Source: Halodesulfurarchaeum formicicum
GTDB lineage: Archaea > Halobacteriota > Halobacteria > Halobacteriales > Halobacteriaceae
DNA: 64,000 bases
Assembly (NCBI RefSeq): GCF_001886955.1
Contig: NZ_CP016804.1
Coordinates: 1,178,001-1,242,000 of the forward strand
Direction: 5' to 3'
A model generated the notes under the pieces. The model was not told the DNA's origin. It saw nothing but the letters and a program-made list of their open reading frames with translations, and searched no databases. Shown here in pieces: positions 3,005 through 25,847 of this stretch (position 1 is the stretch's first letter; each line of letters starts with the position of its first letter). The position numbers were made by a program, and so were the translations under genes.

Positions 3005-3072
3005 GCTGCTGAATTCGCGCGTTCTATTCAGCAGTGGCTAATTGCAACTACCCAAATGATAACCAAAACCAA
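3005..3072 (+). repeat. Island repeat copy A
   Basis: The copy carries the core GCGCGTTCTATTCAGCAG and the downstream GATAACCAAAACC block shared with copies B, D and E. Here the left end also forms a perfect 9 bp inverted repeat, CTGCTGAAT (3006-3014) with ATTCAGCAG (3026-3034), around an 11 nt loop. It abuts the 3' end of the minus-strand gene at 3082. Confidence 0.7.
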
Positions 3073-3081
3073 ATTACGAAC

Positions 3082-3351
3082 TTACTTTCCACCAGGATTG
3101 GTGTTCCGAAGGTTATCTCGGTACTCACGGTACGCCTCTGCCCGCTCACGTTTCTCCTGCTCGCTCAACACATCGTGTTTTTCCTCATCATAGAACGGTA
3201 GTTCCTCAACCGGGGGAATATCCATCACTACTCCTAAGCTGGCGATCTTCGGAAAGTAGTTCTCGATAACCCAATCCTCATCGTGTTTATTGACTGCCTT
3301 TCTAATATAGGGGGCAGCCTCCGGGTATTCTTCTTCCAAGTCTTCGCTCAT
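3082..3351 (-). CDS. Small acidic orphan protein
   Basis: An 89-residue protein starting MSEDLEEEYPEAAPYIRK. It is strongly acidic and rich in Tyr and Glu, with a Glu/Arg helix near the end (EQEKRERAEAYREYRDNL). The open frame extends upstream to 3510, but those residues are basic and look non-coding, so the internal ATG is preferred; GGGTAGTA precedes it. It lies downstream of another small gene on the same strand. I do not recognise a family. Confidence 0.6.
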   Translation of the reverse strand: MSEDLEEEYPEAAPYIRKAVNKHDEDWVIENYFPKIASLGVVMDIPPVEELPFYDEEKHDVLSEQEKRERAEAYREYRDNLRNTNPGGK

Positions 3352-3485
3352 TACTACCCTTTTAGAGTGGGCGAAGGATAATAATCTCCAACGGGGTGGT
3401 GTTGCAAACAATCTTTGTACCGAGCGATAAGCTGTTTGAACATTATCACGGAAGAGTTGCAAATATGGTAGGACATCCGAGGGGC

Positions 3486-3893
3486 CTATTCTGGATTTTC
3501 CTCGTTCCAATCTCTCTGGTCCCAGTTTGCAGCAACACGGATTTTCTCTTGTTCCGATTTCTCGTCGATAACATCAGAGTATTCTTCGACGCTCTCCAAC
3601 CATTGTCTGGCCTCTTTTGGAAGTTCAGATCGACTGCTTGAAATTTCCATTTCGTCTTTATCGTCAAATCGGAGAATTTCAAACGCAAGCCGTTCTTCTT
3701 GAAGTTCCTCAGGCTGACCCTCTCCTATGTCGGGGTCATACTTATCCGGTTCACAGGGGTAGTAAGCCAACTTCTCAGAACGAATTGCAGCTAGCTTACA
3801 ATTTGTACATACATACCAGGGAGCAATACCGCCAATAACAGTCACATCTTCGTGTTTATGAACAGGATCGGTGCCTGAATCAGATTTACTCAT
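3486..3893 (-). CDS. Orphan protein with a zinc-ribbon-like start
   Basis: 135 residues. The N-terminal part has WYVCTNCKLAAIR and then YYPCEPDKYD, that is CxxC plus a later Cys, suggesting a partial or three-Cys metal site. The rest is acidic and probably helical (PEELQEERLAFEILRFDD, then EARQWLESVEEY). It precedes the small gene at 3082-3351 on the same strand with a 134 nt gap and may share its transcript. A TAA triplet tract lies 20-45 bp upstream of its ATG, in the promoter zone. No function can be assigned. Confidence 0.65.
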   Translation of the reverse strand: MSKSDSGTDPVHKHEDVTVIGGIAPWYVCTNCKLAAIRSEKLAYYPCEPDKYDPDIGEGQPEELQEERLAFEILRFDDKDEMEISSSRSELPKEARQWLESVEEYSDVIDEKSEQEKIRVAANWDQRDWNEENPE

Positions 3894-3916
3894 GGATACA
3901 GGCTGATTTATTATCT

Positions 3917-3938
3917 AATAATAATAATAATAATAATT
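3917..3938. repeat. TAA trinucleotide tract
   Basis: Seven tandem TAA units lie about 24-45 bp upstream of the minus-strand start at 3893, where a haloarchaeal TATA box would lie. Read on the transcribed strand it is a TTA run, itself TATA-like. Confidence 0.85.
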
Positions 3939-4302
3939 CGGCACCTAACTCCCACTCACTGACGATGAGAAATCATCTGTATTATCCAACTGCAGGATTT
4001 GGGAATATATTCTTTCGGTAGCGAATAAGTCTCCGAGTGAAAACTGGTTTATTGGGTCGTAATTTGATCTTAACAAATATTTCCGGCCGAGAATACCCGT
4101 CAATGGAGTCGACAAAAAATTGGGACCTTAGACAGAGAGAATTAAAGTCTCGAAAAAACTGGTGCTGCAAAGATTTCCTCCCAGTTTTATCATCAATGAG
4201 CGGTGATACGTGGTTTGCCGGCCAAGAGAGGGGTCATAGAACAAATCAGTTTGGTCAGCGTAACCGGAGCCCTGGAACAAGCCAGGTCCGGGGTACAGGG
4301 AG
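3939..4302. other. Intergenic stretch, no supported gene
   Basis: An 89-codon plus-strand frame (4037-4306) exists but is rich in Arg, Cys and Trp and lacks the acidic bias of haloarchaeal proteins, so it is not called. The right end carries CAGGGAG just before the ATG at 4303, a plausible ribosome binding site. Confidence 0.5.
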
Positions 4303-4605
4303 ATGAGTGACATACCCATAATGGCCGAGAATTGGGAAGAAGGCCTTTGGGAACAACTGAGTAATAACGCCGAAGGTGCAGCTATGGAGATTGAAAACAG
4401 CAACCTTGAGGCGGTATATGAGGAATTTTACATTGGCGCGATGGTGGCCAGAATGGGTCTTAATACGGATCCTGACGACATGAAGGTGCAACGGCTCATA
4501 CTAACCGCTCAAATGGCATGGGTGATGTCGGGACTGCAACTCGGATATACTGACCGTGTCCAAGAAGACCATGAAGGAAGCAGTATATATGCAGATAATC
4601 TCTAG
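4303..4605 (+). CDS. Small acidic orphan protein
   Basis: 100 residues, MSDIPIMAENWEEGLWEQL..., acidic and mostly helical by pattern. A moderately hydrophobic stretch (LILTAQMAWVMSGLQLGY) near residue 70 could be buried or membrane-adjacent. GGGAG lies directly before the ATG. It stands alone on the plus strand between a minus-strand pair and repeat copy B. No family recognised. Confidence 0.6.
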   Translation: MSDIPIMAENWEEGLWEQLSNNAEGAAMEIENSNLEAVYEEFYIGAMVARMGLNTDPDDMKVQRLILTAQMAWVMSGLQLGYTDRVQEDHEGSSIYADNL

Positions 4606-4692
4606 GTTTCCACATTTTACATACAATCTTGATCCACACAATCATCATGAGATGAATAGTTCAAATTCTGACTTCCGAATCAGTGACTCAAT

Positions 4693-4774
4693 GGCGCGTT
4701 CTATCCAGCAAAAATCGATTGCTCCTGTTCAGATAGTAACCTAAACGGGCTGCTGAACTGAGTCTCTGTTCAGC
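4693..4774 (+). repeat. Island repeat copy B
   Basis: GGCGCGTTCTATCCAGCA, then ATTGCTCC, GATAGTAACCTAAACGGG and CTGCTGAAC, in the same order and orientation as copy D. The right end adds a hairpin, GCTGAAC (4752-4758) with GTTCAGC (4768-4774). It lies at the 3' end of the minus-strand gene that ends at 4845. Confidence 0.7.
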
Positions 4775-4844
4775 TCAGCGAATTCCGTTTCTTTCAGCTA
4801 CTCATCGAACAATCATCCACTCAATGTGTATGCTTTCTAATTAA

Positions 4845-5765
4845 CTAAAGTTCAGCTTTGATCTCGTTTTCATAATTGTATAGAATACGGTCCAACTCCC
4901 ACGGTTCAATTTCAAGATCGTCTGCAATAGACTTGAGGAACTCCTCTTGTTCCTCATAGCTGTATCCTTCGTAATCGAAACCGATCATCTCAAAGATATT
5001 TTTTATTCTGGAGTCAATCGCAATATAGTTTCGAAAGTCGGGATGATACAAATCCATCCCGATATTGCGGGCATATTTTGGGCCGATCAATTTGAATTTC
5101 TTTAAGAATTTTATTTTTTCGTTTGCACTGTCTTTCTGCCTGTACTCTTCTTTCAAACCTTTTGGATCTCCGTGGTCTTGTTTTACCAATCCAAAATTTT
5201 CGATTAGTGCTTCTGTCTTTTTATTGTGATATGAGACATTTGCATCAAGAAGAACTGGTTTGATTTTCTCATGACGATTTTCTGGACTCATCTGATCAAT
5301 AGTTTCAAACGAGACTTGTTCGTATCTCTCTTGAACGATGTTATCGTTCTCATCGATAACTAATTGAGCTCCCCGTGAACTCCCTTGTGTCGCGAGACTC
5401 AGAACCAGCTCAAACCACATAGCATCATCACGCTTCCACCGGTGCTGGCCAGTCTCTTTGAGATCTGAAAGTGTCTTTTGCACATCTTCTTTGTCACGCA
5501 CATTCTGAATAGCCTTCGTCAGAGAGTTCATCATCTTGTACTTTTTCCAATCTTCCCGGAAATATCTGTTCCCGTCTGCATCGTGTACCCAATATGAGTA
5601 CCCTTCCTTCGGCTTTGGGAGATGAAAGTCCGGCTCAGAAAACTTACTGAGAATATTGACAAAGTCATCGCTATCGGGTGGTTTCCATTCATCCTCAATG
5701 ATGACAGCGTATCCTTCATCTGGCCATAATTTGTCTAACTCATCCAGGTCTGGATAAGCCGGCAT
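4845..5765 (-). CDS. HhH-GPD DNA glycosylase-like protein
   Basis: 306 residues. Near residues 222-260 it has KKFKLIGPKYARNIGMDL followed by YIAIDSRIKNIFEMIG. This matches the helix-hairpin-helix (LxGIGxKxA) and downstream Asp (IDxRV) of the endonuclease III/OGG superfamily, which remove damaged or modified bases. The Asp is the presumed catalytic carboxylate; the hairpin lysine of bifunctional glycosylases is not obvious. The first ~180 residues have no recognised domain. Sitting in a nuclease-rich island, it may act on foreign or modified DNA rather than in housekeeping repair, which is inference. The ATG at 5765 gives an acidic start, MPAYPDLDELDKLW. Confidence 0.6.
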   Translation of the reverse strand: MPAYPDLDELDKLWPDEGYAVIIEDEWKPPDSDDFVNILSKFSEPDFHLPKPKEGYSYWVHDADGNRYFREDWKKYKMMNSLTKAIQNVRDKEDVQKTLSDLKETGQHRWKRDDAMWFELVLSLATQGSSRGAQLVIDENDNIVQERYEQVSFETIDQMSPENRHEKIKPVLLDANVSYHNKKTEALIENFGLVKQDHGDPKGLKEEYRQKDSANEKIKFLKKFKLIGPKYARNIGMDLYHPDFRNYIAIDSRIKNIFEMIGFDYEGYSYEEQEEFLKSIADDLEIEPWELDRILYNYENEIKAEL

Positions 5766-5913
5766 GTTCTGTAATCTAAGGCGAGAGAGGGAATAAATTG
5801 GGATAGTTCTATTTCTACCGACCCAATTCAGGTGGCAGATGCAAATTGGTGATCTGTATCGAATACCTTGCTACGCGGACGGAGTTTGGGTCGTGCGGTA
5901 TTCGCCCGTTGAC

Positions 5914-6045
5914 TTATTCTTCTGAATTGTCTTTTTTGTCCTGAATGGCTTTCTGCGCACCTTCTGATACAGATTTCCAGAAATCTTCCTCCATCCAACG
6001 AGCGATTTCATCAGCATCGGCATCTTTGTCAGGCTTTTCTGCCAT
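5914..6045 (-). CDS. Very small acidic protein (43 aa)
   Basis: An open frame of 43 codons reading MAEKPDKDADADEIARWMEE... and ending ...KKDNSEE. Its strong acidic bias and helical pattern are typical of genuine haloarchaeal genes. A longer overlapping frame on the same strand (5871-6053) is basic and is rejected. It sits upstream of the HhH gene on the same strand, about 150 nt away, so the two could form one cassette. No function recognised. Confidence 0.5.
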   Translation of the reverse strand: MAEKPDKDADADEIARWMEEDFWKSVSEGAQKAIQDKKDNSEE

Positions 6046-6124
6046 ATTTGCATAATTAGCCCTGTGACTACTATTATTTACTCATGGATTCGGAAGGAAA
6101 CTCCTTCAAAATTATAAATCGATT

Positions 6125-6195
6125 TGCTGCATACGCGCCATCTATTCCTCAGCCGTCAACTGTAACTGTACATATAATAATCAAAATGACGTGCT
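6125..6195 (+). repeat. Island repeat copy C (degenerate)
   Basis: TTGCTGCATACGCGCCATCTATTCCTCAG, then a variable middle and AATAATCAAAATGACGTGCT. It matches the consensus left block (TGCTGnATwCGCGCG..CTATTC) and the GATAGTAACGAAAAC block only loosely. Same orientation as the other copies. Confidence 0.5.
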
Positions 6196-6450
6196 AGATA
6201 GAGAGGATGGAGGCAGCAGATTGGATCGGTTATATTCAGTCCAGTGAGCTATAAGAGTTGTTGAGCAACCCGGCTATCTTTTGTATATTTCAGTCCCGCA
6301 GGAGTGAAGCGGCCATTCCAACTGTACTACATCTCCATTCTGTAAGAAGTACAGCAATCATGGTAGAACACAACAGTTTGGGTTGAACTAATACAGTTAT
6401 TCTCTACATGCACCCCCAGTTCTTTATGTGTTATATGATTCTACTGAATT
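6196..6450 (+). other. Intergenic stretch with a hairpin and promoter for the 6451 gene
   Basis: No gene is seen. CTGTACT (6322-6328) and AGTACAG (6348-6354) form a 7 bp inverted repeat. CTTTATGTG at about 6422-6430 lies 21-29 nt before the GTG at 6451, which fits a TATA box for a leaderless transcript. Together with repeat copy C the gene-free space is about 400 bp. Confidence 0.45.
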
Positions 6451-7632
6451 GTGACTGAGACTACATCGGAAGCACATCTCCAAGAAATTGAGGAGTTGCT
6501 TGCCGATGTTGACCGACCACCAGCAACGACATTAGATATTCTCGGGGAAGCCAAACGCGAACGATACTGGGAAGACCTTTTGGTCTACTTTCTCAATCCG
6601 AGCAATCCCCATGGGTTCAATGCAGATGTATTGGCGGCCTTCTTGCAGGCCCTCTCTGAACACGAAGGGACATCGCTTCCACCTCTACGGCATGAGCTCG
6701 AACAGGTCGAGGTTCAATCACAGGTCCCAACGGGCGATGGGCCGTTTGATATCTTCCTATGGAGTAAGGATGCGTGGTACGTCGTTATCGAGTTGAAAGT
6801 CGCTGCGGCTGAAACAGGGACCCAAACAAGACGATATGCCCAAGCACCCAAGCTTGGCGAGCTCGTGGTGAACCAACACGAAGGAGCGAGTGAGTATGTG
6901 TACCTTGCTCCTAGAAGCGCAGGCTCATCGACATCCGAGAAGTTCGTCGATGTGTCATGGGAATACCTCATCCCCTATCTTGAAGAGGTCCTGAGGACGA
7001 GTTATGGCCAATATCCGTCGAAAAGTCACGCGCAGCTTGCGGATTACCTCGACACGATAAAGCAGACACTCAACATGGACGAGTTCACCACTATCTCGGA
7101 AGAAACGAAACTATACACTGATTACGCCGACACAATCAATCGCCTCATTGAGGCCTACGAAGATGATAGAGCCAAGATCTTCAATCACCTTCAGACGGTA
7201 TTTCTGGACGAGTTAGAGAGCCCCCGAGAGGGGTGGGTCGTTAACAACAGTCCGAAGCGATACATCAACTTCGCCAAAAATGACTGGGGCAACGTGGCTG
7301 GTAGTGTGCGAATCGAATATGAACCCCATGTCCATCTCAACCGCGATCATCCAGAAATTCGCCTCCGCCTCGATATCGAAAATACAGGAAAACAGGAGAT
7401 ACGGAAGGAGTTTAATGAAAAACTGGATGAAGCAGAACGCGATGCACTAAGAAACGCTGACTGGGAATTTGTTGATGGTAGCTATGCCTATCTCACCAAA
7501 TCAGTTCCGTTGGATGTGGACCAGCCAGTGGACTCTATTCATCATGCTATTCAGAATCTCAACGAACTTCGAGCGATGGTTGAGCCCTATATTGACGAAA
7601 TCGTAGCTAAGTATCAGAACAGCGCAGACTAA
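6451..7632 (+). CDS. PD-(D/E)XK nuclease superfamily protein
   Basis: 393 residues, GTG start. Residues ~30-60 (RERYWEDLLVYFLNPSNPHGFN) and ~97-115 (DGPFDIFLWSKDAWYVVIELKV) give the D-x(n)-ExK core of PD-(D/E)XK nucleases, preceded by a conserved Trp/Tyr helix as in families that carry an N-terminal 'FLNP..PHGF' signature. The second half is an acidic helical domain of unknown role. It would cleave DNA; the target is unknown. It stands alone in its repeat-delimited unit, with no methylase or helicase next to it. A defence role is inferred from the nuclease-rich neighbourhood. Confidence 0.65.
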   Translation: MTETTSEAHLQEIEELLADVDRPPATTLDILGEAKRERYWEDLLVYFLNPSNPHGFNADVLAAFLQALSEHEGTSLPPLRHELEQVEVQSQVPTGDGPFDIFLWSKDAWYVVIELKVAAAETGTQTRRYAQAPKLGELVVNQHEGASEYVYLAPRSAGSSTSEKFVDVSWEYLIPYLEEVLRTSYGQYPSKSHAQLADYLDTIKQTLNMDEFTTISEETKLYTDYADTINRLIEAYEDDRAKIFNHLQTVFLDELESPREGWVVNNSPKRYINFAKNDWGNVAGSVRIEYEPHVHLNRDHPEIRLRLDIENTGKQEIRKEFNEKLDEAERDALRNADWEFVDGSYAYLTKSVPLDVDQPVDSIHHAIQNLNELRAMVEPYIDEIVAKYQNSAD

Positions 7633-7763
7633 GGGATTTTTCAGTTATCGTTTGCTAGATTCTCGCTACAGCCAGTTTGTCGGCCGTAACTAACAGTTCA
7701 GAGTTAAACTAGCCCAGTATCGTCCTTTGTCTATCCTGCCCTACACAGGCTCAATCGTAGAGT

Positions 7764-8108
7764 TCAGTCTGAACCGAACCTAATCTCCGCAACTGTTCCA
7801 AGACCATCAGCAGTTTCGCCTTCGGTGGGGTTGTACACCGAAACCCTGGGGTCTTTCCAAGATCGAGGAACGTCTTCTGTCGCACTCACCAACAAATAGT
7901 CAGTCGGGAGTTCATGCCGCTCAATCGTTTCTTCATCAGCTTTCATATTCACGCCGATGTAGCCATCTTCCATAACCCCGGAGTTGAGATTGCACTTCTG
8001 GCGATTGATTTCGATCACTTCTCCTCTGTATCGATCAGCCGCCACGATAATCGTAATCACCTCCCCTTGGCTGAGTTCCGTGAGTGTTTCCCCAATCTTG
8101 TCTGTCAT
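7764..8108 (-). CDS. Small beta-rich orphan protein
   Basis: A 114-residue protein starting MTDKIGETLTELSQGEVITI. The pattern of alternating hydrophobic residues (EVITIIVAADRYRGEVIEI) suggests a small beta barrel, perhaps SH3- or OB-like, which often binds nucleic acid or partner proteins. The frame extends to 8171, but that extension lacks acidic bias and the internal ATG gives a better N-terminus. It is transcribed away from repeat copy D. No family recognised. Confidence 0.55.
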   Translation of the reverse strand: MTDKIGETLTELSQGEVITIIVAADRYRGEVIEINRQKCNLNSGVMEDGYIGVNMKADEETIERHELPTDYLLVSATEDVPRSWKDPRVSVYNPTEGETADGLGTVAEIRFGSD

Positions 8109-8225
8109 AAAATTCTCTTGTAGAGAAGGCCGTTTAACGATTCGGCTGCGGAGAACCTCAGATGAGTCCATTGAACAGAAAAATTCACCAATACATTGCC
8201 CGCCATCTTCTCCGTATGCAAGATA

Positions 8226-8293
8226 TGCGCGTTCTATTCAGCAGCGGTTGATTGTACTTGCTCGGATAGTAACGAAAACGGCCTGCTGAACTT
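8226..8293 (+). repeat. Island repeat copy D (best-formed copy)
   Basis: TGCGCGTTCTATTCAGCAG, then GTTGATTGTACTTGCTCG, GATAGTAACGAAAACGGC and CTGCTGAAC. TTCAGCAG (8237-8244) and CTGCTGAA (8283-8290) are perfect inverted 8-mers 38 nt apart, so one strand can fold into a long-loop hairpin. It lies between the divergent genes at 8108 and 8390. Confidence 0.75.
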
Positions 8294-8389
8294 AGACCAT
8301 CAATCCAGCATAATCTCAGAGTTTCGTCGCCTGAATGAGTCAAATCACAGATGTATTGAGGCGACAGTAACCACGAAACACCCACCATA

Positions 8390-10579
8390 ATGATAGTTGC
8401 CGGGCTACTTGCTCCTTCTATGGGAGGTGACTGGGCTAGTGAGATGGCGAAGAAAATGGAGCAGGAGTACGGAGTGGCCCGAGACCGAGCACTGCAAATA
8501 ACTAATCGTGTTCGAAAGCTGGTCGCCAATCCTGATATCGAAGCGCTGAAAGAAACAGGATTGCTAAACGAAGAAATCACCAATGCGTCAATTCAAGATC
8601 TGATTGCGGAGCTGAACGAACAAGACAAGAGAACGATTGAGGGTCGCTGGAACGCCCTTGCGAAGGAGCGTGGGATCTATGATATCGTCGGGGCTGATGC
8701 ACTTCTCTATGACCCAGGGCAAGGCGGCCTCGATCCAGACAAAGAACTGGTTTCTGACGACGGAGAATCTCTCACAATACAAGAAGCGATGATTACCGCC
8801 TGGAGAGAAGAGATACTGATTGAAGCAATCCCACGAGGTATTCGATTAGGTAATACCGAGTTCCGGACTGAAGATAGTAGCCAGATGTCACTCTCACAGA
8901 TCGAAGATGGATTTGATCAAGAGGGATTAAGTGAGCAACTCAGCCGGGACTTGCGCAGTAGCCAGCTTGAGGTTGATGGGGACCTGCTCGCTCTAAAGGA
9001 CGTCGATTTTTCCCTTGAAGCACCACGGCAGGACCGTGTAATCGCCATTGCCGCTGCACGACGGCATATCCTTGAACACTGTGGTGCCTCCCGTGATGAT
9101 ATCCTGGAAGCGTTGGAACCCGAGAAAAATTACCCGCTCGGAATCCACGGTGCGCAGGCCAGATCTAAGGGTTTCGAATATGAATTCCGGCGCCGATGGT
9201 GGGCGGATCTCGTTGCTCCCGGGTTGCGTTCGCTACCTGATATCCGTGAACCGGCCCACGACTCTGGGATTTGGCTTTCAAATGAAGCGCTGACGGGGGG
9301 GGTTGAATCCGAAACCACGGTCGAGACCATCCTGAATGAGGGGTACGTGTTCGAGCTCACACACCAGACGGACGACGACCAGAAGACACATCTCGTCACG
9401 CATTTCGAACCGGACCGCCCGTCGATGACGCCGTTGAAGGGTCCACCAGCGTTCTGGTTCGAGACTGTCGAGAACGAAGAGCGATTCTCCGTTCGCCTCC
9501 CCGAGATTGAAGCGTTGCATCCTGTCCCGTACGAGAGTCTCGCTGACCCACTCGCGGGGGCTGCGTTCGCAGCGGTGCGAAAGCAACTCGAAGATGACGT
9601 TGCGTCGGTGGATGAGGAACTACTCCGGAAGATGCTGACTGATGTGGTGGCGGACGCGACAAGCGTGGATCGTCGTGAAGCGCTCCGCCTTGCGATGATC
9701 ACGGTGAAACATCGGGACGGCACTCGAAGGTTCGCTGTCGATGCGACGTTCGCGTTGCTGGCTGACGAGCCGTCCGCGCTTGACCGAGCGGCGCTCCAAG
9801 CACTTCATGATGCTGCAACTGATGAGCCAGCGGTGCTGAAAGAGCACGTTGGAGACCTGGCGGTCTACGCGAGTCAGGACTCGATGTGCCAGGCAGCCGC
9901 GACGCACGGCTTGATGGAGTTGGCGGAAGCTGACCCGGCGAGCGTTCTCGACGCAGTTCCCGCCTTGGAAGCAGCGGCGACCGCGGAGACGGAGGCGACA
10001 CAGAGTTACGCGGTGTACGCACTCTCCTGCGTCGCAGAAGCGTATCCTGAAGAGGCGTTCTCCGCGATTGCTGCCTTGATTGAGGTAATGCAGAGTGAGA
10101 ATGAGACGACGCAGACGAACGCGTTAGCGGCGCTCGGGAAGATTGCGTCGAACTACCCGGACGCTGCGGAACCTATCGTGGACGAGCTAGTGACGGTACT
10201 GGACGCCGACGCGAAACGCGTTCGGAATAATGCGGTCGGGTTGCTCGGTGACCTCGCACAGGCACACCCGGCAGTGGTGATCGAGTACGCTGATCGGATT
10301 GCCGCGCGGTTGGAGGATAACAATATTCAGGCGCGTGTGAACGCGTCGATTGCGCTCCAGCGGGCAGGTGAAGCGGATCCTGCTGCGATTCGAGCCCAGC
10401 AGGACCAGATAGAGGCTGCGTTGCAGGATCCGAGTCCGGAAGTCCGGGCGAACGTGTGCTCGCTTATCGGGAATGCGAACGTGAGCGTGCCTATCGAGAC
10501 GCTTGAAGAAGTGGCAGAGAACGATTTAGATGAGACAGTGCGAGACCGAGCGGCATGGGCGATCTCACGCCTAAGATGA
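8390..10579 (+). CDS. Large HEAT-repeat protein with an unknown N-terminal domain
   Basis: 729 residues. From about residue 430 to the end it consists of ~40-residue helical repeats of HEAT/ARM type (for example ALAALGKIASNYPDAAEPIVDELV, VGLLGDLAQAHPAVV, and DETVRDRAAWAISRL at the end). HEAT arrays are protein- or nucleic-acid-binding scaffolds. Residues 1-430 are soluble and acidic with no recognised motif; FEYEFRRRWWADLVAPGLRSLPD near residue 275 is a conserved-looking patch. GC content rises clearly in the HEAT half, hinting at a fusion of parts with different histories. MGGDWASEM at 8420 is an alternative start. It may be a defence or regulatory scaffold; no function is assigned. Confidence 0.7.
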   Translation: MIVAGLLAPSMGGDWASEMAKKMEQEYGVARDRALQITNRVRKLVANPDIEALKETGLLNEEITNASIQDLIAELNEQDKRTIEGRWNALAKERGIYDIVGADALLYDPGQGGLDPDKELVSDDGESLTIQEAMITAWREEILIEAIPRGIRLGNTEFRTEDSSQMSLSQIEDGFDQEGLSEQLSRDLRSSQLEVDGDLLALKDVDFSLEAPRQDRVIAIAAARRHILEHCGASRDDILEALEPEKNYPLGIHGAQARSKGFEYEFRRRWWADLVAPGLRSLPDIREPAHDSGIWLSNEALTGGVESETTVETILNEGYVFELTHQTDDDQKTHLVTHFEPDRPSMTPLKGPPAFWFETVENEERFSVRLPEIEALHPVPYESLADPLAGAAFAAVRKQLEDDVASVDEELLRKMLTDVVADATSVDRREALRLAMITVKHRDGTRRFAVDATFALLADEPSALDRAALQALHDAATDEPAVLKEHVGDLAVYASQDSMCQAAATHGLMELAEADPASVLDAVPALEAAATAETEATQSYAVYALSCVAEAYPEEAFSAIAALIEVMQSENETTQTNALAALGKIASNYPDAAEPIVDELVTVLDADAKRVRNNAVGLLGDLAQAHPAVVIEYADRIAARLEDNNIQARVNASIALQRAGEADPAAIRAQQDQIEAALQDPSPEVRANVCSLIGNANVSVPIETLEEVAENDLDETVRDRAAWAISRLR

Positions 10580-10714
10580 GACAGATATCGATTGAGTCTG
10601 AAGCCGTACCGAATTGAACGAGGGTTTTGAGAACTTTATAGCGAACGCATCAGCAAGGGTTAGAGTCTTTAGGCTCTGTTGAACCCCTCAATTGCTGATA
10701 GTTTGATGAGACTG

Positions 10715-10784
10715 TGCTGCATTCGCGCGTTGTATTCACCATTTATTGGTTGCTCCTATTTTGATGATAACGAAAACAGACTGC
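10715..10784 (+). repeat. Island repeat copy E
   Basis: GTGCTGCATTCGCGCGTTGTATTCACC, then TTGGTTGCTCC, GATGATAACGAAAACAGACTGCA. Strong match to copies A, B and D in the left core and in the TAACGAAAAC block. It precedes the gene at 10867. Confidence 0.65.
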
Positions 10785-10866
10785 AAATCGAGACCCTGAA
10801 TCCCGTCGTCGAGAGGGGGTATTTTGACCTCAATTTCTAAGGGGCTGTGAAAGGTCTCTTCGCTCA

Positions 10867-11373
10867 ATGAGGCCCGAGATCCGGAACCATGATACGTGGT
10901 CGTTCAGCGGGGGGAGAGAAATTGTAGAGAGTAAAGGTTTGAAAGAAGAGTTACCAGCAATTGCAGAATCGTATATCACCCATGGCGGAGGTAATCAGAA
11001 TCTGAGTGACCGGCGTGAACTACTTAATCCTCTGGGATGGGAGCAGGAGATCGGGGTGAAATTTGAGACGACCACAGATTACGACGTAGTCTCTCGTCGA
11101 GCGAGCTTTGATGCGTACAAAGAAGGTGTTGTAGTCGAACACGAGAGCGGTGAACAGATGCGTGCGAACTGGCATCTGATGAAAATGGAGATGGCTCACC
11201 GCGATTCGAACGTGTTCTCGATGGGCCGAACCGCTGATGCGGGTGTACTGTTGATCCCTTCGTACGTCAATTTCCCTACTCTTGGAAGAACTGAGAACGA
11301 TGTTCAGGCAGTGTTAGAGCAGTATTTTGATTTCTCTATACCGCTTTTTGTCTGGGAGTATCCTACCAAGTGA
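10867..11373 (+). CDS. BglII/BstYI-like restriction endonuclease
   Basis: 168 residues. The segment RRASFDAYKEGVVVEHES, then GEQMRANWHLMKMEM (about residues 75-105), resembles the catalytic core of BglII/BstYI enzymes. There an Asp is followed by a short strand ending in VxxE and a helix holding further residues. The rest (GVLLIPSYVNFPTLGRTENDV) fits the same fold. Such enzymes cut DNA at a short palindrome and normally travel with a methyltransferase; none is present within the window's island. It is bounded by repeat copies E and F, so it forms a one-gene unit. The call is by pattern only. Confidence 0.6.
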   Translation: MRPEIRNHDTWSFSGGREIVESKGLKEELPAIAESYITHGGGNQNLSDRRELLNPLGWEQEIGVKFETTTDYDVVSRRASFDAYKEGVVVEHESGEQMRANWHLMKMEMAHRDSNVFSMGRTADAGVLLIPSYVNFPTLGRTENDVQAVLEQYFDFSIPLFVWEYPTK

Positions 11374-11411
11374 GATACGCGCCTTGTATTTAGCACGGAA
11401 TTGCTATCAAT
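11374..11411 (+). repeat. Island repeat copy F (short, degenerate)
   Basis: GATACGCGCCTTGTATTTAGCACGG, then AATTGCTATC. It resembles the left half of the consensus and starts directly after the stop codon of the BglII-like gene. The right half is not evident, and the decayed helicase gene begins just beyond. Confidence 0.45.
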
Positions 11412-11459
11412 TACTGGAGATTTCCACAGAGCCGGCCACACAGAACCCCCCTTGATCTA

Positions 11460-13383
11460 CTATGACCTCGGGGCCCTGAGGGTCCGTGGTGTCTTGCCTC
11501 GAGGGCCTGCTATGACTCGCGTGCCCGGAACGACCTCTCGCAACTCGTCGAGGCCGAGAGGCTCGACTTGGACTCGCTTGCCACTCTGTGTGTAGAGAAT
11601 GCTGGCGGTGACCGCCTTTTCGGGGAACCACTCGTCGAGGACGTGGTGGTAGACACTGAGCTGGGTGCGATACTCGCTCTCTGCCCGTCGCGTACGGTCG
11701 GTTTTGTAGTCGATGATCTCGACCTGGTCGGCAGTCTCGTGGACGAGGTCGATCACGCCCGAGATGCTGACCCGCTTGCCATCGACCTCGATGGGCAGGG
11801 TCGCGGGCTGCTCGGCGTGAAGCTCGCCGTCGAGGCCGTCGAGGAACGCGGCGACCCGCTCCTGGTGCGGATCGGACGGGGAAACCCCTTCACCGAGTGC
11901 GTAGGCCTCGGCGAACGCGTGGAGCCGCTGGCCGAAGTCTACCCCACCCGTCGAGGCCGCTGGCTCGCCATCGCTCTCGCTGTCGGCCTCGAATACCGAC
12001 TCGTCCATGAGTGAATGTGGTGTCTCGCCGATCGGCCCCTCGGGGACCGGCACGGTGAACGGCAACTCCGCCTCGACGAGGGCCCGACCGCGACCGGCCT
12101 CGACACTCGGCTCGATGGCCTCGACGGCGACTGGTAATTCGTCGAGAAACGTGTTTGGCTCCGCGCCACCGGCAACGACGAGGTGGCTCTCTGCACGGGT
12201 GATTCCCACATACAGAAGGCGGCGCTCTTCGTCCAGATCCCGGCCGAGACACTGTCTGATGACGTCGTACCGCCAGTTGTCATAGATGTGTGGCACGCCG
12301 TCCTCGGTGGCGTAGAGTTTGCGCTGGCGAAGCCCGACGGGCTCCTGATACTGGATGACCGCCTGATTCCGGGTCCGAGGCGGGAAGCTGCCGTCGTTCA
12401 TGTTCGCCATGATGACGATCGGATACTCCAGGCCCTTCGCGGCGTGAATGGTCTGCACAGTCACCGAATCCTCGCCGGCGTTCGTGTGTACCTCGACGGT
12501 GCTTCCGGTGTCGATCCCGGCCTCGATGAGTTGGATCACGTCGCCCGGCGTGACCGTCGTCGTCTCGTAGAGTGACTGGAGAGTGTGGAGCAGGCCGTCG
12601 GCGGTCTCACCACTAATGCCGTATCGGTCGAACACTTGGCGGGCGACTGCGCCGATAGCGTCTAACCCTTCGAGGGCAGTGTGGAACTCCTGCAGGGCCT
12701 CGGGATACTGGTCAGTCGCAAGTATGTGGTCGATCTCGTCGAGGGTATAGCCGGCCTGTTCGAGGACGACCGCCCAGCCCCGGTCAGCATCAGTATCGAG
12801 AATGCGCAGCCAGGCAAGCAGGAGTTTGGCCGGATCCGTTCGATAGAGCTCGATGCCGCCGTCGTAGGCCATCGGGATGTCGTACTCCTCGGCGACGCCG
12901 AGCAACTCCCGGCCGTAGTCTCGCGTGCGCGTGAACACGGCAATATCGCCATGGGTGGGCGGTCGAGGTTGGCCGTCCTCGCCCTCGAGGGCGTACTCGG
13001 TGAGGCGACGGTAGGTCGTGTCGAGTGAACCCATCACCTCGACGATGTCGCGAGTCGTCGCGTCGACGTACGCATCGTACTCGGAAATTGCGTCGAGGGA
13101 ACCCTGGTGATCCCAGCACTGTAGAACGTTCCCGATCGTGTGGGCGACATCTCACCAGTCATGATTTGTCCGGTCGATCACCTCCAGAAAGGCGGTTCGG
13201 TCCTCGCGTGTTCGCGTCGGCCTGCGGCCAGGCGTCGTGGGGTTGTGGCGAACGTGCCAAAATGTGGGTGATCCAGACGGCGGTTGAGCGCGCTTGCGAG
13301 CGGGAAGTCGGGTCCAAGGTCGTAGTCGGTGACTGCGGGGTAGACAGCATCCAGATTGTCGGTGTGAAAATGATATAACTAGT
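11460..13383 (-). pseudogene. Decayed UvrD/AddA-like helicase-nuclease
   Basis: A 525-codon open frame (13037-11460) holds the C-terminal half of a UvrD-like helicase: TIHAAKGLEYPIV (motif V region), RRLLYVGITRAESHLVV (motif VI), and then a PD-(D/E)XK nuclease (GVIDLVHETADQVEIIDYKTDR). Upstream the same frame continues past a TGA at 13152-13154 (NHDW-stop-DVAHTIGNVLQCW). Beyond a frameshift near 13205 it continues again (YHFHTDNLDAVYPAVTDYDLG) to about 13383. The N-terminal Walker A and B motifs are missing. It is therefore a truncated, frameshifted remnant. Its C-terminal architecture parallels the intact AddA-like gene at 33461. Confidence 0.8.
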
Positions 13384-13597
13384 GTCACACAAACAAATCC
13401 AACAGTGTTCTGCTGGCTCGTGGGCATTGTACGGAGACGCTGATTCGAGAACAAGTTTATCTGAACAGTGCCCTCTATACTCCCAAAGTTCCAAGTTATC
13501 TAGTGTGTTTGAGAAATACTGACGATAGTTTCATTTGGTACCAATTCGATAATCGGATGAGGCGACAAATGATGCAACTATTCCGGTGATACAGTTC

Positions 13598-14419
13598 ATG
13601 CGAATAGAGCTAGCTCTGGACGCTCTCGCGGATGCTGCGTACGATTCTTCAGCCCACCATAAGATACGAGGTCGCATCTGGCGGGCTTTGGAGCACAAAG
13701 AAAAGTACACTAAGTTGCATAACACGAGCCACGGTGTCGGATTCGCTTTCTCGAATATCTTTCCGTGGGGGGAAATTGTCAAAGGTGATCGGAGATACAT
13801 CCGGATAGCATCCCCCCGACGTGAGGTGCTGGATGATCTAATTGATCACTTCGGGCGAAATCGAGCGTTCGAGGTGGGTCAGATGCGATTCAAAATTGCG
13901 GACATCACAGGCCACGCTCCACAGGTTGGTGAAGCGGGGTCAACTGGTCTCATGGACACTGGGACAGGCGTGTTTTGTGCGATCGGCCGGCAACTGGCCG
14001 AAGAACACGGTCTCGATACATCGGAAATCGAGGAGGGAGTGTCAGAGACCAAGATGTACTGGCGACCGAAGCACGGGATGGAGCCACTTCAAGCGGCGAT
14101 CAAACGCTCCCTCCAGCAGACACACGAACAGTTCGGCGACGACTATTACCCTGGTCCAATGGAAGTCGAAGACCCCCTGTTCACAGAATTCGAGCCGATA
14201 AAGGATGACGTCACTTACTCAATCAAGTTTCAGCCAGCCACAGCAGTCGACCGAACGGTTATCCTCTCCAAGTGGCGGCTAGGCTATCGAGTACGCGATG
14301 AAACCCATCGGTACCATCTGAACCTGGCTCTTGACGCTGGAATCGGCCAACGCCGCGAACATGGATTTGGCTTCCTCAACCTTCGTGAACAGAACCCACC
14401 ACGGGTGAACTCAACATGA
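13598..14419 (+). CDS. cas6: Cas6 pre-crRNA endonuclease
   Basis: 273 residues starting [16 protein letters not shown]; a GTG 12 nt upstream is possible but the ATG matches the typical start. Cas6 cleaves the CRISPR transcript within each repeat to give crRNAs. The Gly-rich loop [15 protein letters not shown] near the C-terminus is the family signature, and the fold is two ferredoxin-like halves. An early His ([12 protein letters not shown]) is a candidate catalytic residue. It is the first gene of the cas operon and overlaps cas8b by 4 nt. The 214 bp upstream is AT-rich and should hold the operon promoter; no clear TATA box could be fixed. Confidence 0.92.
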
Positions 14420-16563
14420 GTGACAGGCCTACTCCAGAGGACTTCCAGGACGCCCTGGACGAGTACTGGCATGATCGTCCCCCAGCGAGCCTGGAAGATG
14501 TCATGACACTCTATGGTGTGATGGCTGTCGCAGAAAGTGACGGCAAACTGTATAAAACCCCAAGCGAATTAACACCGTATATTGGCGAAGGCCGGTTGAT
14601 CACGGTATTCCTAGATATATCAGAAGATGGGGCGGAGGTTGTGGATGTCAAACAAGATACCGTTCGAGAAGAACACGTTGAAAAATTGGCGTACGCCCAC
14701 AAAACATCCGGCCAAGGATCGAAATATAGTATTACCCAGACTGGTTCAGCCGACGGTAATAAAGTTGACACGATAGTAGACACGAGATATGGTACATTGG
14801 GGAAGCTCGCTGGTTGGGCAACACAGGACTCAATACAGAAATTCATCGATGAAGGAGAGCACCCAGATACTTGGATTCTCGAAAAAATTCAATCTGTTTT
14901 AGGGAAGAAGAGTGACTCATTAGAGGAAGTCGCTAATTCAATCGAAGAGTTACTACCTGCCGATGAATCTATTCCAACTGTACTAACAGTCCGGATTCAA
15001 GCTGACGCCTCGAATTTAGATTCTGAGGATGGTGTCGAAAAACAGTGGTTGTGGCCCGGAGAAATTAATGTACTGACCGAGGCCATGGAGCGGTACGCGA
15101 CCGCAAACGCTTCGGATAAGAACATCAAGTCTGGACCCCCGTCTGTCGGATACGGGAAAGGGTATGTCTCAGGGAATAACGATCGCGTAGTCGGAACACC
15201 TGAAAGTCCCCTGGAGGTATTTTCTGTGAAGCACCCTGATGCACAGCCAGGATTGCGCAAAGAAGAGTCCTGGAGAAATTATCCGATCAGCGATGACGTA
15301 GCAATGCTGTTTGCGAAGGCTCGGAATCTTATTGACCGTTGTGTCTACCGAAATGGAGGAATGGAAACGTACGCTCTTCCATACTTTGCAGGCAAAATGA
15401 CCGGCATGAAGGCGGACGCCCTGCACCTCGCGATCGATTCGGTCGATCCAGATCGTCAAATCGGGGAATCGACTGACCCGCCGATGGCACAGGTCACGTA
15501 CAATCTCCTCGTAAACGATGACCCGGAAAAACGGAAATTGGCTGAGCAGGAGCTGCGGTTCTATACGGTTACTATGCCGATCAGCGATGACAAGAATATC
15601 ATCGCTGAAGAGCCAGCAGCTTCCGTGTATTGGCCAAACAAGCTCGCAGATGCACTTCGAGAGACGGTCGAAGGGCCCACGCTAGATCCAGCAACCGGTG
15701 GATTCACTCCTGTCGACAATTGGCCTTTGCTGAGCTGGGACTCGCCGGACAAAAAGAGTGCTCGCTGGCGAGCGTATGCCCTCGTTACGAACCATCAATT
15801 CACTGACGCGGTGTTTGGCTACCGTGACGAAGAAGGAGACGACTTCCGTCGTATCGTTGACCATCGGCTTCTCTCGGGAACGCCGGTGGAGGCGAGAACA
15901 CTATTCAAGGAATATCTCCAGAGGTACGGCGACGAATCGGAGGATGGCGACCCGCCACCTCAGCAAATTGTCGCCCAACAACTCGTTCACCTGGAAACAC
16001 TCTCACGTGCAGGATTACTCACCGGCATCGACACGCCAATCGAACTGACAAAGACTACAATGACAACCGAGACAATTGACACAAGCGATATCGCGACGAT
16101 ACGCGAACAGCGGCTTGAGTCATTCCTCAACCGCCCGCTGTTTGACGAACCGACACGGAAAGCAGCCACCCTGGCAGGCGTTCTCGTCGGCCAGATAAGC
16201 TGGCATCAGGACAATATCCGGGATGTCGGCCGTCCGCTCGACTCTGGTACAAAGGGCGACCAACTCACGAAAAATGGTCTGGAGAACGCTCTGACTGCAG
16301 CGCTAGAAAAAGCCAAAGTCTACGCACAGGATTCCGAGAAGAGTTATCACCGAGACTTGCTCTTTCCGGAGACCGTCGACCGGTTACTGGAGGAAACAGA
16401 TTCGATGCCAACAGGCTGGGACATTGACAAGTCTGAGCTCCAATTCTGTTACGTACTGGGCCACGCCCACGGGCGGCGGTCGATGCCCGTTGCGTATCAG
16501 CTCCGCGCTGAGGATAGAACCGACTCCACAGAGACCGCTGCGGCGGAGAGTACTACCAACTGA
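14416..16563 (+). CDS. cas8b: Cas8b (Csh1-type) large subunit of type I-B Cascade
   Basis: 715 residues in the usual place and of the usual length for haloarchaeal Cas8b, between cas6 and cas7. Cas8b recognises the PAM and starts target unwinding in the type I-B interference complex. The sequence itself is divergent, as is normal for this subunit. The C-terminal part is helical and would act as the small-subunit region. Its ATG overlaps the cas6 stop. Function is assigned mainly by operon position and length. Confidence 0.85.
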
Positions 16564-16586
16564 GTCCACAAAACCAATCCACACCA

Positions 16587-17612
16587 ATGACGAATCCCAA
16601 CCGCTCCGAACTGTTGTTCGTATACGACGCACAGGACTGCAACCCCAACGGCAACCCGATCGGGGACAATCGACCACGACGTGACCCAGACACTGGCCAA
16701 GGAATTATCACCGACGTCCGCCTCAAACGGTACCTTCGCGACCAGTTGCTGGACGATGGCTACGACATCTACGTGAAGACAGTCGATGGAGAATCCAAGA
16801 CCCGCACCACGCTGATTAAAGACATCCTCGATATGGTTGGCGACGCTGACGAGATTGAGGAGGTAGAAGATCTCGGATCGGACTTTCTTGAGGCTGCAAC
16901 GGACGTCCGCTACTTCGGAGCGACACTCAGCTTTGAAGCCAGTGACGTCGAGGAAGACGAAGCTTTCAGAGAAGGTTTGAACGACGTCCTGCCGAATCAC
17001 TACCAGGGCCCAGTTCAGTTCCTCCCTGCGAAATCCCTGAACGAAGTCGAAGAGAACGAGGAGTACGACTCACTCACGAGCGTCATCTCCACGGGTGAGG
17101 AGAATCGTCAAGGTGGCTTCGACCTCGACGACAAGCGCATCAAATACGGAATCTACCCCTTCTGGGGATTAGTTGACAACAACGGAGCTAAATCGACTAA
17201 CCTCTCACAAGAGGACGTCGAACGACTCGACACACTTTGTTGGCGAGCGCTGAAAAACCAGACAACCTCTCGATCTAAGCTCGGTCAAGAGCCGCGGCTG
17301 TACCTCCGTGTCGAATACAAGGAGGGGAACTACCACGTGGGCGGCCTCCACGAGATGCTTGATCTCAGCGACGAGGGTTCCGACACCCTCCGGTCGGTTA
17401 ATGACGTCGTCGTTGACGCTTCAGACCTAGTCGATGCGCTCGAAAACGCGAGTGACCGCATCAAAACGATCCACGGGGTTGGGGACGATCGGCTTACCCT
17501 CAAGGTGGATGGTGAGTCACTGTCGGGTGAGGAATTCCTCGACTACCTTGATGACGAGGGGCACACCGTCCACCGGATCGACGTCATCGAAGAACGAGAT
17601 TTGGCAGCCTAA
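16587..17612 (+). CDS. cas7: Cas7 (Csh2) Cascade backbone
   Basis: 341 residues with the Csh2 N-terminal signature LLFVYDAQDCNPNGNPIGDN, followed by TDVRLKRYLRD. Cas7 polymerises along the crRNA to form the backbone of Cascade and contacts the target strand. A central GGFDLDDKRIKYGIYPFWG is also typical. It lies 23 nt after cas8b and 9 nt before cas5 in the same operon. It is intact and of full length. Confidence 0.94.
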   Translation: MTNPNRSELLFVYDAQDCNPNGNPIGDNRPRRDPDTGQGIITDVRLKRYLRDQLLDDGYDIYVKTVDGESKTRTTLIKDILDMVGDADEIEEVEDLGSDFLEAATDVRYFGATLSFEASDVEEDEAFREGLNDVLPNHYQGPVQFLPAKSLNEVEENEEYDSLTSVISTGEENRQGGFDLDDKRIKYGIYPFWGLVDNNGAKSTNLSQEDVERLDTLCWRALKNQTTSRSKLGQEPRLYLRVEYKEGNYHVGGLHEMLDLSDEGSDTLRSVNDVVVDASDLVDALENASDRIKTIHGVGDDRLTLKVDGESLSGEEFLDYLDDEGHTVHRIDVIEERDLAA

Positions 17613-17621
17613 CCGCAAGAC

Positions 17622-18434
17622 GTGAGTCAGAAGATGTCACCACAGATTGCCGAGGACGGTGTTCCAGATCACTGTCTGTCGTTTACCGTCCAGTCTACCT
17701 GGGGCCACTTCAAGCGGGTCGGCCGAAGCGTAACCAAGCAAACCTACCGAATCCCTCCCCGGACCACGGTCGCCGGTATGTTGGCAGCCATCGTCGGTGC
17801 TGACAGAGACTCATACTACGACGTTTTTGGAGCCGACAACGCTGCTATCGCAATCACGCCAGTCTCAGACCTTCGAACGGTGAACATCCCGACAGTTGGA
17901 GTGGGAACAGACCCAGGCCAAAGCGTTGCAAAAACAGCAGGGAATCACTACAGTGAATACACACTAACCTATCAGGATACGACCGAAGCTCGGCAGCTCC
18001 ACGGATACGAAGTGCTCGCCGACCCAGCCTACCGAATTGACGTCGCCCTCGAAGATGAAGCATTCTATGACGACCTCCGGGATCATCTGAATGCGGGAAC
18101 CGCCATCTATCCACCCAGCCTGGGCAAGTCCGAGTACCTGGCGACAATCAAGGACGTGCAACTGAACCAAACACCGGTCCGTGTTGAAGCGAATAACCTC
18201 ATCGATGTCGATTCCGTCGTTCCAGGCTCACTAGCCGACGCTGTTCCTCAGGGTGGTGTTACCTACGGCGTGGAGCGGTCTCCCGCCGTGATGGAAAAGT
18301 CCGGAGGTGGACGAAAGACGACTCGGTTCGACGACTACGTGTACACACAGAAGGCGGATAACACAGTCCGAATCAATGCCAATACAGAGTTAGTTCCGGT
18401 TGAAGTCGGATCTCGAACGGTCGTGTTCCGTTGA
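17622..18434 (+). CDS. cas5: Cas5 subunit of type I-B Cascade
   Basis: 270 residues. The N-terminal half has the Cas5 pattern [20 protein letters not shown], then [18 protein letters not shown] (Gly-rich turn after the first strand). Cas5 caps the 5' handle of the crRNA in Cascade. The called start is a GTG at 17622; an ATG at 17634 (MSPQIAED) is equally plausible. It is tightly packed between cas7 and cas3. Confidence 0.9.
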
Positions 18435-18437
18435 TAC

Positions 18438-21281: not shown

Positions 21282-21380
21282 TCAGGGTGGCTCTGGCCGG
21301 GGAACCATAAAGTGCCGCCCTGCGAATCCTTATTCGGATGATAAGTGACCCAATTACTTCGTATCGAGGGATTGTCTCCA

Positions 21381-21932
21381 ATGGCGACACCTAGATCGGT
21401 CGCAGAGTACGTTCGAGACGAGCGACATCCAGAGAGGGAACCAACCGTTCGGATTACCGGCCTCATGGTTCAATACTACCACGTTTGCAGACGGGAACTC
21501 TGGTTCATGTCACGGGGAATCGATATCGACCGGCAAACGACCAACATCCAGCGAGGGACTCACGTCGACAAGACCAGCTACAGTGATTCTCGCCAATCAT
21601 TCATGATTGGTAATCGAATCCAACTCGACGTACTCGACTCCGGTGACGTAATGGAGGTTAAGGTGTCGTCCACGTTGGAAACGCCTGCTCGGATGCAGTT
21701 ACTGTTCTATCTGTGGTTCCTCCAAGAAATATATGGGATCGAAAAAGATGGTGTTCTGGCGTATCCCACAGAACGAAAACGAGAGTCCGTCGAATTGACC
21801 AGCGAAACTACGGAGCGCGTCGAGTCGACAGTAGCTGGCATTCTCGGCGTAGTTTCTCAAGACGAACCGCCCCAGTTGGAAAAGAAGCCGTACTGTGAAT
21901 CCTGTCTCTATCAGGACCTCTGTTGGATGTAA
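21381..21932 (+). CDS. cas4: Cas4 adaptation exonuclease
   Basis: 183 residues from ATG (MATPRSVAEYV); an upstream GTG at 21345 would add 12 residues. It has the RecB-type nuclease core (QRGTHVDK, then VLDSGDVMEVKVSS) and QLLFYLWFL matching the QxxxY motif. The Fe-S cluster cysteines are YHVCRREL at the start and CESCLYQDLC at the end. Cas4 trims prespacers and helps choose PAM and orientation. About 100 nt separate it from cas3, and the cas1 start follows its stop within 2 nt. Confidence 0.92.
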   Translation: MATPRSVAEYVRDERHPEREPTVRITGLMVQYYHVCRRELWFMSRGIDIDRQTTNIQRGTHVDKTSYSDSRQSFMIGNRIQLDVLDSGDVMEVKVSSTLETPARMQLLFYLWFLQEIYGIEKDGVLAYPTERKRESVELTSETTERVESTVAGILGVVSQDEPPQLEKKPYCESCLYQDLCWM

Positions 21933-21933
21933 C

Positions 21934-23191: not shown

Positions 23192-23310
23192 TATCCGTTG
23201 GTGTAAAACGTTTCCATCGACCCCCTGGGGAAGAGCGGGAATTGCGGGTCGATGGAAATATTTTCCTACATAGCCCAAATACACGCTCTATACGGGCCAT
23301 ATCCGGGTGG
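23192..23310 (+). promoter_or_regulatory. CRISPR leader with a 13 bp inverted repeat
   Basis: 119 bp between cas2 and the first repeat. TTTCCATCGACCC (23211-23223) and GGGTCGATGGAAA (23246-23258) are perfect inverted arms separated by 22 bp. AT-rich stretches (AATATTTTCC, CTATACGGG) follow and could hold the array promoter. Position and content fit a leader that directs transcription and polarised spacer insertion. Confidence 0.8.
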
Positions 23311-25838: not shown

Positions 25839-25847
25839 TCCGGCTCT

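Follow-up and report, generated by a model that had tools for sequence, protein, structure and literature searches.

We analyzed a 64,000-nucleotide stretch of the Halodesulfurarchaeum formicicum chromosome (NZ_CP016804.1, positions 1178001 to 1242000 of a single-contig genome of 2,085,946 bp), hereafter the window, and found an array of gene units joined by a conserved two-part repeat. We consider it probable that the best overall explanation is a haloarchaeal cassette array in which exchange takes place at short palindromic cores, probably through a short tyrosine recombinase. That the units themselves are mobile cassettes exchanged at these cores we hold to be very probable, and site-specific cassette exchange is the likely function of the system. 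The array spans chromosomal positions 1173006 to 1189395 and comprises seven units, most of them within the window. An initial sequence-only reading had placed six copies of a repeat here, all pointing the same way, between genes on both strands. Five strong copies are indeed present on the + strand (GCGC at 3017, 4694, 6135, 8227, and 10725), at positions that correspond to the first of the two cores described below, and the intervening genes do lie on both strands; the sixth copy, at 11374, is real but has only the core and no linker. One more strong copy is found upstream of the window, at chromosomal position 1177501 (window -499). With at most 3 mismatches, the core pattern matches 4 times against 0.07 expected, and the middle block of the repeat 3 times against 0.14 expected.

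Related clusters from the same genus and family show that a full repeat copy comprises two distinct palindromic cores, each 27 bp long and both oriented alike, with two 10-bp inverted arms flanking a 7-bp spacer (10-7-10). The consensus of the first, or G-core, is TGCTGAATWY-GCGCSNT-STATTCAGCA; that of the second, or A-core, is TGCTGAATAY-AGACCTT-CTATTCAGCA, with the spacer AGAGGAT in other families. G-core and A-core are separated in each junction by a 39-bp linker, the right half of which is conserved as CTGTCAGAAGCGGCG (consensus of 50 junctions), and the resulting G-linker-A junction joins neighboring units at a core-to-core distance of 66±1 bp. The ends of the repeat had at first been read as able to pair, in a layout likened to integron attC sites or miniature elements, but they do not form one hairpin; they belong to the two separate cores, 66 to 67 bp apart. 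Pairing within cores did not rise above that of shuffled sequences (171/500), cross pairing was weak (16/500), and folds were no more stable than shuffles in 7 of 8 cases and only marginally so in the other. With neither covariation nor excess stability, the folded hairpin or attC site was rejected; a known RNA was likewise rejected, since no Rfam family matched within window positions 1 to 30000.

Core spacing is regular. Across 955 kb of array loci, 269 cores scored above threshold, against 0 in the reversed sequence, and 45 of the 47 same-strand core neighbors less than 72 bp apart were a G-core followed by an A-core at 65 to 68 bp, the remaining 2 being A-A pairs. Because the position weight matrices (PWMs) behind these counts had been refined on the same 955 kb, we rechecked the fixed spacing on separate, named genomes found by pattern, where 38 of 45 close pairs were exactly 66 bp apart under a pattern that permitted only a small range of distances. 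Larger gaps between cores run mostly from A to G (median, 810 bp; quartiles, 493 and 1439 bp); a gene unit is therefore the stretch that begins with an A-core and ends with the following G-core, G-linker-A being the joint between units. All cores within an array share one orientation, and the spacer class alternates. In Natrialbaceae (Natrinema salinisoli, L114; Natrialba magadii, L113), conservation reaches about 40 bp past each core into the unit ends; CGACGGCTCCGTTTGTTTCACGTCGA, for example, follows the A-core there, and the units have longer common ends.

Exchange at the cores is suggested by a unit that carries feoAB. In the H. formicicum array, this unit runs from an A-core at chromosomal position 1177568 (window -432) to the G-core at 3007 to 3033 (+; TGCTGAATTCGCGCGTTCTATTCAGCA; PWM score, 38.2), and it is 98.97% identical over 3477 bp to positions 114682 to 118158 of a 170-kb contig in a second genome of the genus (G002, contig C2). 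The match opens at the A-core's first base and stops 24 bp beyond the center of the G-core. The neighboring units are unrelated, and the sequence to the left of the unit is a G-linker in one genome and a transposon end in the other. The A-cores of the two genomes disagree at 4 of their 27 positions, in a unit that differs by about 1% as a whole (27 differences, 4 of them in the A-core), and the two G-cores agree through TGCTGAATTCGCGC and then diverge, with the homology ending inside the core. Other pairs show such core-bounded homology as well. When all loci are pooled, 119 of the 245 internal alignment ends fall within 30 bp of a core center, where about 2 to 4% would be expected; in 42 alignments, mostly copies of recombinase modules, both ends lie at cores. 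Ordinary homologous recombination between the junctions would be another way of swapping units, in keeping with junctions that are repeated and about 95 bp long and with breakpoints at repeats. However, the junctions are often only 60 to 80% identical to each other and would be poor substrates, divergence starts inside single 27-bp cores, and recombinase modules in unrelated surroundings match from core to core. We regard homologous recombination as a very improbable explanation.

The cores are directly adjoined by one particular family of short tyrosine recombinases. A congener encodes a 234-amino-acid member (L075:7415-8119) that is 76% identical to one in a Natrinema array; 86 of 392 genomes encode homologues, and about 26 encode a member of a subfamily with at least 63 to 65% identity. 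The subfamily gene is usually flanked by a G-core on one side and an A-core on the other, where it replaces the linker at a nearly constant spacing (807 or 823 to 830 bp core to core), and a core is found within 200 bp of the short recombinase in 25 of 27 loci. The protein (about 235 amino acids) matches PF00589 only (2.4e-14) and has no recognized N-terminal DNA-binding domain. Its R, K, HxxR, W, and Y active-site motifs are conserved in 24 sequences, which by sequence places it among the tyrosine recombinases (PF00589 domain with R, K, HxxR, H/W, and Y), and its nearest solved structures are XerA-type enzymes, as weak matches. On this evidence, the short recombinase is the probable agent of exchange at the cores. 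By description, it is like the archaeal families fam30-07, fam30-17, and fam30-28, which also consist of the catalytic domain alone and for which the consulted passages of a review of archaeal tyrosine recombinases give no function or site (PMC8371274).

Several further observations concern this enzyme and its relatives. The L075 recombinase and its homologues carry a conserved CxCGYC motif inserted in the catalytic domain, possibly a metal-binding site as far as its sequence suggests. SNJ2-type integrases, two of which lie beside A-cores in genome G006, were rejected as the partner enzyme, since only 4 of 30 relatives from core-bearing genomes have a core within 200 bp. Two SNJ2-type genes on a Halanaeroarchaeum sulfurireducens plasmid (L083:3569-4771 and L073:14000-15010; 36% identical) end about 75 to 100 bp before an A-core, but most relatives elsewhere do not. 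The idea that the linker is a deletion remnant of a recombinase module was dropped, as the terminal sequences do not match by eye.

The sites might instead be used by a host recombinase of the XerA/XerC type, with the short integrase as a frequent passenger. The dif (pdif) modules of Acinetobacter plasmids depend on host enzymes of this kind, XerC and XerD; the dif site is 28 bp long, with XerC and XerD arms around a 6-bp spacer (11-6-11) (PMC13141974), and the 10-7-10 core has a similar layout. The H. formicicum genome contains a full-length Xer-like gene, and many array-bearing genomes lack the short integrase. Nevertheless, XerA has been reported from most archaeal genomes (PMC8371274), whereas the cores occur in about one-third of haloarchaeal genomes; the short integrase stands beside cores at nearly all of its loci, as described above; and two spacer classes in one fixed orientation are unlike dif modules. 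A host Xer enzyme as the agent of exchange is an unlikely alternative to the short recombinase.

The element is widespread among haloarchaea, and its full junction was found in no other group. A match to the G-core pattern is present in 136 of 392 Halobacteriales genomes, representing 55 of 95 genera; the reversed pattern gave 0 matches in every genome listed. The full junction was found at 56 loci among 84,980 bacterial and archaeal species, all 56 haloarchaeal. No viral contig or phage record matched, and a phage origin was rejected on that basis. A Natrinema salinisoli plasmid gives a clear example, its five junctions all having a 66-bp core-to-core distance and being separated by single genes (PAS, DoxX, ArsR, methyltransferase, and others). 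The site-specific cassette system proposed by the sequence-only reading has gained support from the checks suggested with it: the profile search found the element across haloarchaea, related genomes have units in common whose boundaries lie inside cores, and a particular tyrosine recombinase co-occurs with the element.

Many arrays sit inside the ends of transposons of the insertion sequence (IS) family IS5, with 8-bp target duplications. In the fetched loci, 16 of 17 occurrences of the terminal motif GGCYYTGTTGAAAYCCTC are followed by a core after 38 to 43 bp, the motif lying outward of an array's first or final core. Two ends and an 8-bp target duplication were recognized in each of the complete elements at L170 (ACTACTTA), L172 (ACCATCTC), L174 (GATGAACT), L178 (ACTGAAAT), L182 (CTAAAAAT), and L189 (GTAATTTT). 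At L182, two gene units joined by G-linker-A are accompanied by an IS5 transposase (NF033579; 3.6e-66) with both ends present, so that terminal inverted repeats, target duplication, and transposase of an IS5-family frame occur together. The IS6 family, suggested as the frame by the terminal sequence, was rejected because the transposase is of the IS5 family. The H. formicicum array has terminal ends at chromosomal position 1172963 (window -5037; GGTTCTGTTGAAAACCTC) and at 11416 to 11433 (-), where the inverted motif GGAGATTTCCACAGAGCC closes the array; neither a recognizable target duplication nor a transposase was found with these ends. In seven arrays, the closing motif lies at a fixed 25 to 30 bp from the last G-core.

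We considered whether these transposons could account for the arrays by themselves, the cores being subterminal binding sites of the IS5-type transposase, the units passenger transposons, and the arrays products of repeated insertion and end fusion without site-specific recombination. The near-constant distance from terminal motif to outermost core fits this scheme, as do units that are complete elements with terminal repeats, 8-bp target duplications, and transposase, and a linker that by eye resembles the joined inner parts of two transposon ends. Yet most junctions between units lack the terminal motif, the linker length is constant (66 bp core to core), the feo unit switches neighbors within its two cores (A and G), at positions far interior to any transposon end, and a tyrosine recombinase gene is found exactly between cores. 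Transposition alone is an unlikely explanation. The possibility that the repeat is an IS end, raised in the sequence-only reading, applies to the outer frame but not to the sites between units.

Two observations on the transposons themselves are worth recording. IS5-type insertion sequences at L182:2807-3655, L179:884-1702, and L189 have passenger genes inside their terminal repeats (HD-domain and RDD-domain-like, by eye). A transposase-bearing element that is 95% identical over 2.1 kb in two genera (L073:11964-13902, on the H. sulfurireducens plasmid; L031, G002 contig C3, about 89156 to 91279) lies beside or inside an A-core (AGACCTT or AGACCAT, then GAGGGCACCG), and its position in the sequence suggests that it may be an insertion sequence targeting A-cores.

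We propose the following mechanism for cassette exchange at the cores. A tyrosine recombinase, most likely the short one, would cut within the spacers and exchange strands between two sites of one spacer class (G with G, or A with A). A single event would insert or excise a unit with its linker as a circle, and two events, one per spacer class, would swap one gene unit. Two incompatible spacers would hold the units in one orientation and alternating order, and IS5-type transposition would carry whole arrays to new replicons. Like-with-like exchange at two incompatible spacers would explain the fixed order, the single orientation, and the exact unit boundaries of the arrays, with genes on either strand. 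We infer the strand exchange, the enzyme, and the circular intermediates from these patterns.

Several results weigh against this proposal. Few gene units are similar enough between loci for both ends to be mapped, most of the two-ended cases are recombinase modules, and homologous recombination between repeated junctions could give the same breakpoints. No empty site was found: an exact pattern for an empty platform (two terminal repeats around one core) matched in 0 of 392 genomes, and the empty insertion site of the H. formicicum array was not found in related genomes, where the left flank is unconserved and the right flank has only weak matches elsewhere. The H. formicicum genome and array-rich Halanaeroarchaeum genomes lack the short recombinase, which was seen at only 1 of the 56 junction loci (loci of up to 8 kb). 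Arrays in the genomes that lack it would be old or served by another enzyme, and the array described here looks orphaned and partly decayed. The enzyme assignment is the weakest step of the argument.

Among known systems, the closest in logic is that of the Acinetobacter dif modules, in which exchange requires spacers that match or almost match and a single module is replaceable through cointegration and resolution (PMC13141974). In both systems, gene modules lie between short two-armed tyrosine-recombinase sites and module types alternate; in both, as proposed here for haloarchaea, sites with the same spacer are exchanged and two events swap one module. Whereas dif modules have alternating, inversely oriented sites, the haloarchaeal sites all point one way and have two fixed spacer classes; one haloarchaeal module type is a 39-bp noncoding linker or a recombinase gene; and the enzyme implicated from sequence is a dedicated short recombinase, not XerC/D. 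The arms of the 27-bp haloarchaeal site also differ from the dif sequences in PMC13141974. The arrays further resemble integrons (PMC9668308) in their conserved site with two (here, predicted) recombinase-binding cores, in the many arrays without a nearby recombinase gene, in the possibility that arrays ride on transposons, and in being single-gene arrays with a conserved separating site (here, a median unit of 810 bp and fixed junction spacing). Integron attC sites are recombined as folded single strands, with the fold better conserved than the sequence, and IntI integrases have a specific extra domain. In the haloarchaeal arrays, we found no folded single-strand structure with covariation, as pairing and fold tests against shuffles show, no attI, and no IntI-type integrase; against TIGR02249 (cut-off, 265), the short recombinase reaches 21 bits and matches only the end of the model, and no tyrosine recombinase adjoins the H. 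formicicum array. In addition, the haloarchaeal genes lie on both strands, and exchange is seen at both cores. By these tests, the cassette system is not an integron. Neither Halobacteria nor haloarchaea are mentioned in the study of archaeal integrons (PMC9668308). With haloarchaeal IS5-family insertion sequences and miniature inverted-repeat transposable elements, many arrays have in common terminal inverted repeats, 8-bp target duplications, and a surrounding DDE transposase, but the cores and fixed G-linker-A junctions inside an array are not transposon ends. We judge the chances to be about even that this is a third, independent kind of gene-cassette system beside integrons and dif modules, with two heterospecific spacers, a catalytic-domain-only recombinase, and natural recombinase-mediated cassette exchange inside IS5-type transposons.

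The units of the H. formicicum array can be followed from left to right; all cores are on the + strand, and the A-core is decayed beside the G-cores at 3007, 4684, and 10715, as judged from the alignment of copies. An A-core and a GLUG-repeat surface protein (PF07581) come first, followed by a G-A junction and the feo unit, whose genes (141 to 2743, -) encode a membrane protein (141 to 596), the C part of FeoB (599 to 1834; PF07664), its GTPase part (1831 to 2472; PF02421, 7.1e-46), and FeoA (2450 to 2743; PF04023, 3.7e-17). Beyond its G-core are the linker and decayed A-core (3034 to 3100) and a unit (3074 to 4710) with three small open reading frames (ORFs; 3082 to 3510, -; 3486 to 3893, -; 4303 to 4605, +), none with a family match, ending in a G-core with a diverged left arm (4684 to 4710; PWM, 14.5; full junction, 66.3 bits with model R1). 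The next unit (4751 to 6151) opens with a decayed A-core (4751 to 4777; TGCTGAACTGAGTCTCTGTTCAGC...), carries a possible DNA glycosylase (4845 to 5765, -; weak match to the N-glycosylase/DNA lyase family NF002305, 4.4e-4, under its cut-off), and ends in the G-core at 6125 to 6151 (PWM, 27.2). The A-core at 6192 to 6218 (PWM, 22.4; 67 bp from the G-core start) begins a unit (6192 to 8243) with a PD-(D/E)XK nuclease (6451 to 7632, +; PF14281, 1.7e-12; PADLOC PDC-S26, 2.6e-25) and a small ORF (7764 to 8171, -), closed by the G-core at 8217 to 8243 (PWM, 34.9; junction, 83.8 bits with model R1). From the A-core at 8284 to 8310 (PWM, 28.5; 67 bp from the G-core start), a unit with a HEAT-repeat protein (8390 to 10579, +; PF13646 and other HEAT families) extends to 10741; an IS5-type terminal-repeat motif, GGCTCTGTTGAACCCCTCAATTGCTGA, at 10672 to 10698 (+; G000:C1:1188672-1188698) stands immediately left of its G-core (10715 to 10741; PWM, 31.5). 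The last unit (10781 to 11395) consists of a decayed A-core, an ORF without a known family (10867 to 11373, +), and a terminal G-core with no linker after it (11369 to 11395; PWM, 21.0), the copy first noted at 11374. A by-eye guess that this ORF is BglII-like was dropped, as it had neither a family nor a structure match. The genes had been described as many nuclease-like; one PD-(D/E)XK nuclease and one subthreshold N-glycosylase/DNA-lyase match bear this out, while the HEAT protein, the feoAB unit, and the remaining genes, which lack a family, do not.

Other loci lie to the right of the array. A minus-strand gene at 11460 to 13037 encodes only the C-terminal part of a UvrD/PD-(D/E)XK helicase-nuclease and is apparently truncated; a 1165-amino-acid UvrD-like gene lies at 33461 to 36958. 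Genes at 13586 to 22929, adjoining the array end, are consistent by eye with a type I-B cas operon, and a repeat array with a period of about 66 bp in self-matches (about 23308 to 25843) follows them and looks like a CRISPR (clustered regularly interspaced short palindromic repeats) array.

Haloarchaea are known for extensive gene exchange, and we found no cassette-capture platform described for them, nor any description of this system, in the open literature searched, a search outside which most subscription papers fall. With the G-core in about one-third of haloarchaeal genomes and over half of genera in the set searched, the arrays offer a testable route for the turnover of accessory genes, among them iron uptake, nucleases, regulators, and transporters, on both chromosomes and plasmids. 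Two nonmatching spacers would account for the way in which order and orientation are maintained, and the short recombinase could serve as a compact genetic tool for halophiles. If our account is true, an integron-like gene-swapping system previously undescribed in haloarchaea would be at work in these organisms.
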